A DNA stretch of 64,000 nucleotides from Pseudoruegeria aquimaris. Its GTDB lineage: Bacteria; Pseudomonadota; Alphaproteobacteria; Rhodobacterales; Rhodobacteraceae. The stretch covers positions 62,001 to 126,000 of the forward strand of contig NZ_FWFQ01000007.1 in NCBI RefSeq assembly GCF_900172235.1. The letters are read 5' to 3'. This document shows positions 3,900-30,687 of the stretch, piece by piece. The stretch's first letter is position 1, and each line of letters opens with the position of its first letter. The translations under genes were made by a program, and so were the position numbers. The notes under the pieces are model-generated. The model had not been told where the DNA came from. It did no database searches and saw only the letters and a program-made list of their open reading frames with translations.

Positions 3900-3956
3900 C
3901 TTCTGATGTTGCAGAGACGCTAGCCGGAAATCGTGGCAAAATTTTGGGCGAAGATG

Positions 3957-4493
3957 TTATCCGCCGCACCGTTTTGCGGCTTCTTCGAGTGCAGCCGTGA
4001 AGCCGAGCAGCGAGAAAGTGTCCTCGGTGCGGGTGCCGCGGGAGGAGCGCCCGACAACCTTTGCTTCCGCGCCCCGTTTCATCGCCGCGATGATCGCCTT
4101 GTCCTGCTCGGGGGAGCTGGGCCAGGCGTTCTCGCCCTGCGTGAGGAAATCGAACTTGGAGTCGCCGATCTCGACGGACACGGTCGAGCCCGTGGCGAAG
4201 GGGTAGCCGCCGGTGAAGGAGACTTCGCCTTCCACGCCGGCGCCGGGGCGGTAGGTGACGAACAGCAGGATGTCGCTGCGGCGCACGGCGACCACGCGGC
4301 CATCCTTCGTGTTCACGGTCTTCTTTGGGCTGGAGACGGCCCAGCATTCGGTGGGATCATCCTCGACGAAAACGCTCCAGTCCGTTTTCGCGGCCACGCG
4401 GTTGGTGGATTCCGCGGTTTCCTGTGCGTTCGCGCCCGCGGCGAAACACACCAGCACCATCGCGCCAAATCCACGAGCAACGATCGATTTCAT
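3957..4493 (-). CDS. IalB-like secreted protein (invasion-associated locus B family)
   Basis: A 178-residue exported protein. The first 23 residues form a clear signal peptide (positively charged start, hydrophobic core, GANA-Q cleavage site). The mature part has the WSVFVEDDPTECWAVSSP opening and the RxxDILLFVTYRP block typical of the IalB family, and a C-terminal cysteine. The family was named in Bartonella but is common in free-living alphaproteobacteria, so the name does not imply virulence. The start ATG 4493 has a GGAGG nine bases upstream. The open frame continues upstream antisense to the asparaginase gene, but that part is a shadow. It shares orientation with the Hint gene and diverges from the asparaginase gene. 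Confidence 0.85.
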   Translation of the reverse strand: MKSIVARGFGAMVLVCFAAGANAQETAESTNRVAAKTDWSVFVEDDPTECWAVSSPKKTVNTKDGRVVAVRRSDILLFVTYRPGAGVEGEVSFTGGYPFATGSTVSVEIGDSKFDFLTQGENAWPSSPEQDKAIIAAMKRGAEAKVVGRSSRGTRTEDTFSLLGFTAALEEAAKRCGG

Positions 4494-29197: not shown

Positions 29198-29821
29198 ATG
29201 CAACGAGCCCTCATTCCCGGCGTTCTCGCCATGGCCGCCATCGTGGTGGCCTCCAACATCCTGGTGCAGTTCCTCTTCGGCAACTGGCTGACCTGGGGTG
29301 CCTTTACCTACCCGCTTGCCTTCCTCGTGACCGATGTGATGAACCGCGTCTACGGTGCCGCCACCGCCCGCAAGGTGGTGTTTGCCGGTTTCGTGACGGG
29401 CATCATCTGTTCCTTCATCGGCACCCAGATCATGGGCGAGTTCGGCCCCCTCGTGACGCTGCGGATCGCGCTTGGCTCCGGCCTCGCCTTCCTGACCGCG
29501 CAGCTGATGGACGTGGCGATCTTCGACCGCCTGCGCGAGGGCCGCTGGTGGCGCGCGCCGCTGGCCTCCACGCTGGTCGGCTCCACGCTGGACACCGCCA
29601 TCTTCTTCACCGTCGCATTCTCGGCCACGCTCACCTTCCTGGAGCCCGGCAACGACGTGTCCTGGGCCGGTGAGATTCTGCCCATCCTCGGCGTCGGGCC
29701 GGAAGCGCCGCTCTGGGTTTCTCTCGCGATTGCCGACTGGATGGTCAAACTGGCGCTCGCATTGATCGCTTTGGTGCCGTTTCGCGCAATCGTGCACCGT
29801 TTGATGCCAGATGCTGCGTAA
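29198..29821 (+). CDS. Queuosine precursor transporter (YhhQ/VUT family)
   Basis: A 207-residue inner-membrane protein with about six hydrophobic segments. FTYPLAFLVTDVMNRVYGAATARKVVFAGF is the signature of the YhhQ (VUT) family, which imports the queuosine precursors preQ0/preQ1. SFIGTQIMGE and the STLVGSTLDTAIFF stretch complete the match. I looked for a preQ1 riboswitch in the 98 bases upstream and did not see one. The small transcription unit described next starts within a few bases of its stop codon. Confidence 0.9.
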   Translation: MQRALIPGVLAMAAIVVASNILVQFLFGNWLTWGAFTYPLAFLVTDVMNRVYGAATARKVVFAGFVTGIICSFIGTQIMGEFGPLVTLRIALGSGLAFLTAQLMDVAIFDRLREGRWWRAPLASTLVGSTLDTAIFFTVAFSATLTFLEPGNDVSWAGEILPILGVGPEAPLWVSLAIADWMVKLALALIALVPFRAIVHRLMPDAA

Positions 29822-29847
29822 AATGTTTTGACAAACACCAGATCTGT

Positions 29848-29890
29848 GGCACCCTCCTATTACGTTCAGAACAACCAGAAAGGAGGTGCC
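29848..29890 (+). promoter_or_regulatory. Anti-Shine-Dalgarno element sequestering the small ORF ribosome site
   Basis: GGCACCCTCC (29848-29857) is complementary to the ribosome site GGAGGTGCC (29882-29890), nine pairs with one bulged C. CACCTCC at 30009-30015 could pair with the same site instead. A consensus TTGACA lies at 29828-29833, but I see no convincing -10 box at the right distance, so the transcription start is unknown. Confidence 0.4.
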
Positions 29891-29891
29891 A

Positions 29892-29996
29892 ATGATCATT
29901 GGGAAACAGGAGCAGCTGGTGAAGGTTACGAGCGAGGTGAAAGTTTAGGGGGCAGCCCCTCTATGCAATCCCTGGCTTCGGGCTCTGCTATCTAGG
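29892..29996 (+). CDS. Small ORF of 34 codons with perfect ribosome site (unknown)
   Basis: I do not recognise this gene. ATG 29892 has AAAGGAGGTG immediately upstream with near-ideal spacing. The peptide begins MIIGKQEQLV and ends SLASGSAI; it is hydrophilic, has a KSLGGSP segment in the middle, and lacks a membrane segment, signal peptide or cysteine. It could be a small protein, a regulatory leader peptide, or the message part of a dual-function RNA. It sits in its own unit between the queuosine-precursor transporter and arfB. A strong terminator follows, and the two anti-Shine-Dalgarno stretches around it imply translational control. Confidence 0.5.
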
Positions 29997-30027
29997 AGTA
30001 CCGCTTGCCACCTCCAATTCTCGAGAG

Positions 30028-30066
30028 GAGCCCCCGCGCAGATGCCGCGGGGGCTCTTTCATTTTT
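30028..30066 (+). terminator. Strong Rho-independent terminator after the small ORF
   Basis: GAGCCCCCGCG (30028-30038) pairs perfectly over eleven bases with CGCGGGGGCTC (30046-30056), then TTTCATTTTT. From 30067 to the arfB start at 30265 I see no other supported feature. Confidence 0.92.
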
Positions 30067-30264
30067 GGCACAAGTCGGTTGAAGGCACCTGTTGCGCAAA
30101 AAAACAGATACGCGCCTGCCCGTCTCGTCGCGCCACGGCTGTGTTTCAAGCCCAATCGCAGGTGCGCTCCGCTCCCGCCCGGGCCGCCGCTCATCGACAA
30201 ATATTTCAAGGTGGCTTTCGTTCCCGATCTGGTCGCCCGCCGCATGCGCCGCTAGGGTGCGCCC

Positions 30265-30687
30265 ATGTTGCGGATCAACGACGATATCACCCTTGCCGAC
30301 TGGGAACTGACCGAAAGCTTCAGCCGTTCCTCGGGGCCTGGCGGGCAGAACGTGAACAAGGTGTCCACGGCCGTCGAGCTGCGCTTCGAGGCCGAGCGCA
30401 GCCCCAATCTTCCGGCCCATGCCAAGGCCCGTCTGAAGCGCATCGCGGGGCGGAAATGGACGACCGACGGCGCCATCGTGATCCGCGTGGAAGACACCCG
30501 CAGCCAGGCCCGCAACCGCGAAATCGCGCAGGAACGGCTGGCGGAGATGATCCGGCAATCCCTGATCCGGCCCAAGCGGCGGATCAAGACACGGCCCACG
30601 CTTGCCTCCAAGCGCCGCCGCGTGGATACGAAGGTCAGGCGCGGGCAGGTCAAGGCCCTGCGCGGCAAAGTGGACAAGGAAGACTGA
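30265..30687 (+). CDS. arfB: Alternative ribosome-rescue factor ArfB (peptidyl-tRNA hydrolase)
   Basis: ArfB (YaeJ) frees ribosomes stalled on non-stop mRNAs by hydrolysing peptidyl-tRNA. The 140-residue protein has the GGQ catalytic motif at residues 26-28 within FSRSSGPGGQNVNKVSTAVELRF. Its long basic C-terminal tail (KRRIKTRPTLASKRRR...) enters the mRNA channel of the stalled ribosome. The length matches the E. coli protein. It precedes the aminotransferase-like gene with a one-base overlap (TGATG), so all three genes 30265-32950 probably form one operon. Confidence 0.95.
   Translation: MLRINDDITLADWELTESFSRSSGPGGQNVNKVSTAVELRFEAERSPNLPAHAKARLKRIAGRKWTTDGAIVIRVEDTRSQARNREIAQERLAEMIRQSLIRPKRRIKTRPTLASKRRRVDTKVRRGQVKALRGKVDKED

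Follow-up and report, generated by a model that had tools for sequence, protein, structure and literature searches.

What lies in the short interval between a transporter gene and an arfB-type gene of Pseudoruegeria aquimaris, and does it act as an RNA, as a coding sequence or as both? The window analyzed here is a 64,000 nucleotide stretch of contig NZ_FWFQ01000007.1, and the original prediction for this interval was a short transcription unit with a tiny ORF and a ribosome site that can be sequestered. Sequence comparison indicates that the interval is an unannotated RNA gene between two housekeeping genes, which has its own 18-codon ORF and is common to most genera of the Rhodobacteraceae. 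The features of the locus, all on the forward strand, are as follows.

29198 to 29821, +: Vut_1 (PF02592) transporter gene of the YhhQ / queuosine-precursor-transporter type, the upstream neighbour (Pfam 2.5e-30)
29828 to 29833, +: -35 box TTGACA; 146 of 199 loci match it at five or all six positions
29847 to 29855, +: predicted extended -10 (TGG CACCCT) at a spacer of 16 nt, which is the spacer length in 157 of 199 loci
29879 to 29888, +: perfect Shine-Dalgarno (SD) sequence AAAGGAGGTG; GGAGGTG in 200 of 200 loci, with 29882-29888 as the 5' strand of closing helix P1
29889 to 29902, +: predicted helix P2 around the start codon, CCAATGATCATTGG; two-sided changes in relatives, invariant in the clade of the window
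29892 to 29948, +: predicted 18-codon ORF MIIGKQEQLVKVTSEVKV, from ATG 29892 to the stop TAG at 29946-29948
29930 to 29978, +: predicted hairpin arm P3/P4, apex GGGGCAGCCCC directly 3' of the stop codon (fold of seven close relatives)
29979 to 30003, +: predicted small hairpin, the third in the multibranched structure (from the fold of seven close relatives)
30009 to 30015, +: anti-SD CACCTCC, which forms the 3' side of closing helix P1; in 99% of cells it pairs with the SD
30028 to 30065, +: intrinsic terminator, an 11-bp GC-rich stem (30028-30056) and a T tract; stem-loop kept in relatives
30265 to 30687, +: arfB-type gene with an RF-1 domain (PF00472), the downstream neighbour (Pfam 1.2e-21)

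Distribution and genomic context

With the transporter gene as the only anchor, AGGAGGTG was found in 78 of 80 Rhodobacteraceae loci, in the corresponding position except for one rearranged locus that has it beside arfB, and one further transporter-anchored locus has GGGAGGTG in place of AGGAGGTG. A covariance model built from 22 of these loci matched 343 of 397 family genomes, belonging to nearly as many genera and almost always with a single copy each. The clade of the window is too diverged for the strict filters of this search; in a more sensitive search the element of the window aligned to the model over its full length with weak scores of 17-29 bits, and a sequence pattern located window-type elements in 8 of the 397 genomes. 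Outside the family, the model gave only matches of 22-27 bits in 337 genomes of the class, which is chance level for that many genomes. Further counts come from a non-random sample of 200 distinct loci, 80 of which were reached via the transporter gene while most others were top-scoring model matches. In this sample the Vut_1/YhhQ-type gene lies 5' of the element in 191 loci and arfB lies 3' on the same strand in 182, starting a median of 88 nt past the fold; the element was seen with the transporter gene alone or with arfB alone, never with neither. One relative (L082) has the transporter gene without an element directly 3' of it.

Comparison of the window with Rfam 15 at E<=5 gave a best score of 20 bits, far under the gathering cut-offs, and the loci of four relatives gave zero matches at the gathering cut-off; tmRNA, SRP RNA and 6S RNA were rejected as identities since no such match exists at the locus. 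No prior description was found in the searchable papers, and an unlabelled earlier listing in their supplements is possible. In their main texts, the sRNA lists of R. pomeroyi (PMC4809877), P. denitrificans (PMC5107571) and R. sphaeroides (PMC6238624) tie no entry to this locus, nor do papers on structured-RNA screens. The family is among the most abundant marine bacterial families, yet this RNA gene has no Rfam family.

Promoter and terminator

The TTGACA box on which the original prediction had remarked is present and conserved in relatives. The pattern TTGACA, 16-nt spacer and TGn-CAnnCT recurs also where the upstream gene differs or the transporter gene is absent, with the TG at -3/-2 in about 180 of 199 loci and the last T of the hexamer in 196 of 199. 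The -10 is itself a prediction, as the consensus in part guided its fitting and some of the same bases counted towards the choice of spacing; it would place the transcription start at about 29862, some 17 nt 5' of AAAGGAGG. At the other end, the 11-bp terminator stem from 30028 and its T tract are found as proposed, and a strong stem-loop follows the element in 200 of 200 loci. Promoter and terminator are conserved also in loci that lack one or other neighbour gene, and an independent promoter and terminator, as expected of a dual-function small RNA, are thus found at the level of sequence.

These findings bear on the reading of the element as a non-coding RNA or a 3'-UTR element of the transporter gene in which the ORF is incidental. 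The element does start only 48-80 nt past the transporter stop codon in most loci; against this stand the conserved promoter, the persistence of the element in nine loci without the transporter gene, and an ORF whose start, length and stop are kept beyond the needs of the RNA, and we regard such a reading as very improbable.

RNA fold

Folding of the window gives z = -4.2, and the comparative evidence for a fold is far stronger than this value. The predicted fold is multibranched, with a closing helix P1 (GGAGGUG/CACCUCC), helices P2 and P5, a long P3/P4 arm and a small hairpin. Across 100 loci 93% of cells pair and 27 of 43 pairs show two-sided changes, and in the helices homologous to the P3/P4 arm such changes occur in 7 of 9 and 8 of 9 pairs. 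Not one of 500 shuffles reached the observed covariation by any measure, with either 22 or 100 sequences, and structures slid along the alignment scored far lower. Fitting to the model biases the alignment of 100 loci in favour of the structure, but a MAFFT alignment of 22 sequences gives the same picture. The clade of the window has a like fold with a different sequence. By eye the P2 loop might also pair with the TCTCGA linker, but such pairing is not kept across clades, this being a judgement made without a formal test.

The Shine-Dalgarno sequence and its pairing partners

The SD AAAGGAGGTG is present before ATG 29892 as first described, and two anti-SD partners had been proposed to compete for it. 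Both can pair with it, and their conservation sets them apart. When folded from the predicted start at about 29862, the RNA pairs its SD with CACCTCC at 30009-30015 with a mean probability of 0.97, and when folded from the -35 box it pairs with the upstream partner GGCACCCTCC (29848-29857), whose duplex with the SD is calculated at -19.2 kcal/mol. This upstream segment overlaps the extended -10 (29847-29855) and would therefore be missing from an RNA that starts at about 29862. Among relatives the longest Watson-Crick run to the SD averages 4.6 nt upstream, against 4.2 in shuffles, and 6.6 nt downstream. The upstream partner was accordingly rejected as promoter DNA with near-chance pairing in relatives, and with it the two-partner switch; any relevance it has would be confined to readthrough transcripts and to the vicinity of this species. 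An internal GAGAGGTG considered as an alternative partner of CACCTCC was likewise plausible by eye and is not conserved across clades, again as judged without a formal test.

The two strands of P1 behave differently. The SD strand is fixed, whereas the anti-SD strand drifts (CACCTCC, CGCCTCC, CATCTCC and others), varying at five of seven positions and mostly towards G-U pairs. If only the RNA were constrained, drift would be expected in both strands, so the asymmetry suggests that something beyond pairing preserves the SD, as would be the case for a ribosome site. Anchoring on the motif partly favours the invariance of the SD, and the 80 transporter-anchored loci were not gathered by motif. 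The cost of opening the SD has a median of 6.3 kcal/mol, and the 10-nt duplex between the SD and the 16S tail is worth about -14.7, these being single-RNA folding energies that ignore co-transcriptional folding; as the duplex outweighs the cost, the ring could in principle be opened by 30S binding. The 16S 3' end used, GGCTGGATCACCTCCTTTCT, was taken from two other genomes of the family, the sole match to the 16S-tail pattern in the genome itself not being an rRNA 3' end.

The 18-codon ORF

The 34-codon frame of the original prediction proved to be a frame error: the frame of ATG 29892 ends at TAG 29946-29948 after 18 codons, and the TAG at 29993 belongs to another frame. This corrected length is exactly that of the ORF in 186 of 200 distinct loci, while the start is NTG in all 200 (GTG 179, ATG 13, TTG 8). 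Codon 19 is TAG in 84 loci, TGA in 72, TAA in 30 and TGG in one, and if the columns were independent their counts would predict about 34 cases of TGG. P4 contains the stop codon, whose third base covaries with its partner (A-U or G-C), so that pairing and stop identity are satisfied together; since G-G could still pair in P4, the rarity of TGG is not explained by pairing. A 190-tip tree of the neighbouring protein implies at least 58 switches of stop type, against nine changes of ORF length. The comparison thus points to strong selection on the start and stop of the predicted ORF, and indicates that its start, length and stop are conserved beyond the RNA's own needs.

The peptide itself is a different matter. 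The excess of amino-acid similarity is largest in frame 0 (z 17, against 9 and 6.5) and comes mostly from codons 2-13, while codons 14-18 drift freely. The 18-codon ORF is found in 10 of 13 elements of the window-type clade, but the main form of the peptide (V-S-R-x-x-L-E-R-G-V-G-T) and that of the window clade (MIIGKQEQLVKVT) are poorly conserved with respect to each other, which together with the drift of codons 14-18 makes a function of the peptide uncertain. The peptides of L231 (MSIGIQEQLVRIT) and L023 (VSNGIMERGVGTV) appear intermediate between the two types. In seven loci of Aliiroseovarius type (L004, L007, L010, L013, L014, L019 and L024) the ORF is shortened to 13 codons and the fold and terminator are kept. 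Codon usage sets the ORF apart from its surroundings, with a codon index of 0.33 versus 0.69 in neighbouring genes, and AGA, which makes up 1.5% of arginine codons in those genes, is dominant in the ORF.

Relation to arfB

The position of the element raises the alternative that it serves arfB as a 5' leader and attenuator, in which translation of the uORF would control readthrough of the terminator and so couple ArfB output to the state of the ribosome. Such an attenuator would show a conserved short ORF with an intrinsic terminator after it, and the element has both. Moreover arfB is downstream in 182 of 200 loci and often begins 9-60 nt from the end of the terminator, a distance so short that there is scant space for another promoter. 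One MAG, L070, has no detectable arfB; there the element is directly followed, 91 to 567 nt 3' of the fold, by smpB (PF01668, at 3901-4377), the gene of a further ribosome-rescue factor, though this may be due to chance. Bacillales offer a precedent, a uORF motif having been described there in front of hflX, a ribosome-rescue gene (PMC8632094). An attenuator should also have its regulated gene always directly 3' on the same strand, yet in the loci outside those 182 the following gene is convergent or unrelated, and in several genomes a convergent gene lies directly 3' of the terminator with arfB kilobases away or on another contig; the element in such genomes still scores about 95-112 bits. 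Nor does the terminator's 5' arm show the antiterminator pairing expected of this mechanism: its covariation with the RNA amounts to +0.31 +/- 0.21 kcal/mol, as compared to -3.40 for a true helix, and a search for a conserved antiterminator by this measure found none. The convergent genes and the lack of a covarying antiterminator imply that the element is probably not solely an arfB leader, and we consider the attenuator reading unlikely, if worth keeping in view. The frequent nearness of arfB and the presence of smpB in its place nevertheless make a link to ribosome rescue attractive, and with arfB as a rule so near, some role in cis is possible.

The spacing and identity of the next gene vary. 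From terminator to arfB there are about 200 nt in the window (30066-30264). The gap is shorter in the two congeneric genomes, at 122 and 56 nt, and in many relatives, at 9-60 nt. In one clade (L006, L009 and L077) a same-strand ORF of about 192 aa replaces arfB directly after the terminator, 55 nt from the fold; no Pfam family matches the first 70 residues of this ORF.

Proposed mechanism

The comparison supports the promoter, the terminator, the fold, the invariant SD and the start, length and stop of the ORF, and what had been foreseen as a small unit with a tiny ORF and a sequestrable ribosome site is strongly supported by them, with 18 codons instead of 34 and a single conserved partner for the SD. 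The ORF and the downstream pairing are indeed conserved in relatives, the result on which that prediction had been made to depend. We put a probability of roughly 55% on the reading that the element is a self-contained small structured mRNA and probably a dual-function RNA; its 3' end would keep the SD closed, and binding of the 30S subunit would open it. An RNA of about 200 nt would be made from its own promoter and end at its own terminator; the 5' GGAGGUG and the 3' CACCUCC would pair, closing the multibranched ring and shutting the perfect SD together with the start codon, which lies inside P2. The anti-SD of the 30S subunit would bind the SD more strongly than the lock does and open the ring, upon which the 18-codon ORF, rich in rare codons, would be translated. 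The ribosome would halt inside P4, and as long as it occupied the RNA it would keep P1 and P2 melted, together with the 5' strands of helices P3-P5. The RNA may therefore have two states, one closed and one held open by the ribosome with its C-rich anti-SD strand free, and switching between them would report or respond to 30S availability. We infer that such a ribosome-gated ring controls a regulatory output, with the RNA, the peptide or both acting in trans.

A bolder version would make the element a family-wide sensor of free ribosomes, an anti-SD-locked ring opened only by a 30S subunit that captures the SD and reads a slow ORF of fixed length, the open and closed forms differing in a regulatory output that possibly includes the adjacent ribosome-rescue gene; we see this as speculative and distinctly unlikely. 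Similarly doubtful is an RNA that acts in trans on ribosomes or SDs, its 5' end serving as a 16S decoy or its freed C-rich 3' strand blocking the SDs of other mRNAs, with an ORF that merely loads the ribosome and opens the fold. An invariant SD beside a weakly conserved peptide, the prominence of rare codons in the ORF and the 17 nt over which GAAAGGAGGTGATCCAG, the most frequent 5' sequence, is complementary to the 16S 3' end are all consistent with that role, but this extended complementarity is lost in several clades, that of the window included, and the anti-SD strand drifts, as opposed to the fixed anti-SD-like motif of CCUCCUCCC-type sRNAs. In the self-locked mRNA that we favour, fold, SD and ORF limits are held jointly while the peptide drifts, which makes the element a clean test case for a function that may lie in translation and not in the peptide.

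Comparison with known systems

The CCUCCUCCC-type anti-SD sRNAs of Rhizobiales (alpha-r14 / NfeR1) contain a C-rich anti-SD-like segment, and the element resembles them as an alphaproteobacterial small RNA with such a segment. Its segment, however, is predicted to pair with its own SD and drifts, so that the conserved exposed CCUCCUCCC motif of the alpha-r14 type is replaced by a paired and variable 3' strand, and its ORF is conserved. Pos19 of Rhodobacter is described as a 219-nt RNA of the RpoE regulon and is a small coding RNA (PMC5036791); it is likewise a small RNA gene with a short ORF in the same bacterial family, from which the element differs, judging by that description, in its sigma-70-like promoter, its fixed 18-codon ORF in a multibranched fold and its self-locking SD. 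The uORF attenuator motifs uORFC-8-2 (cysS, Rhodobacterales) and uORFC-6-1 (hflX, Bacillales) combine, as the element does, a conserved short ORF, structure and a terminator before a translation or rescue gene; the motifs in the main text of that work are all at other loci, an unlabelled earlier listing in its supplement being possible (PMC8632094). Compared with them the element has neither repeated regulatory codons nor a covarying antiterminator, and it survives away from arfB. RNAs of the yfr6 / Downstream-peptide type, whose conserved structure is in the 5' UTR of an ORF (PMC2864571), are similar in that a structured RNA is tied to a short conserved ORF; in the element described here the ORF would lie inside the fold itself.
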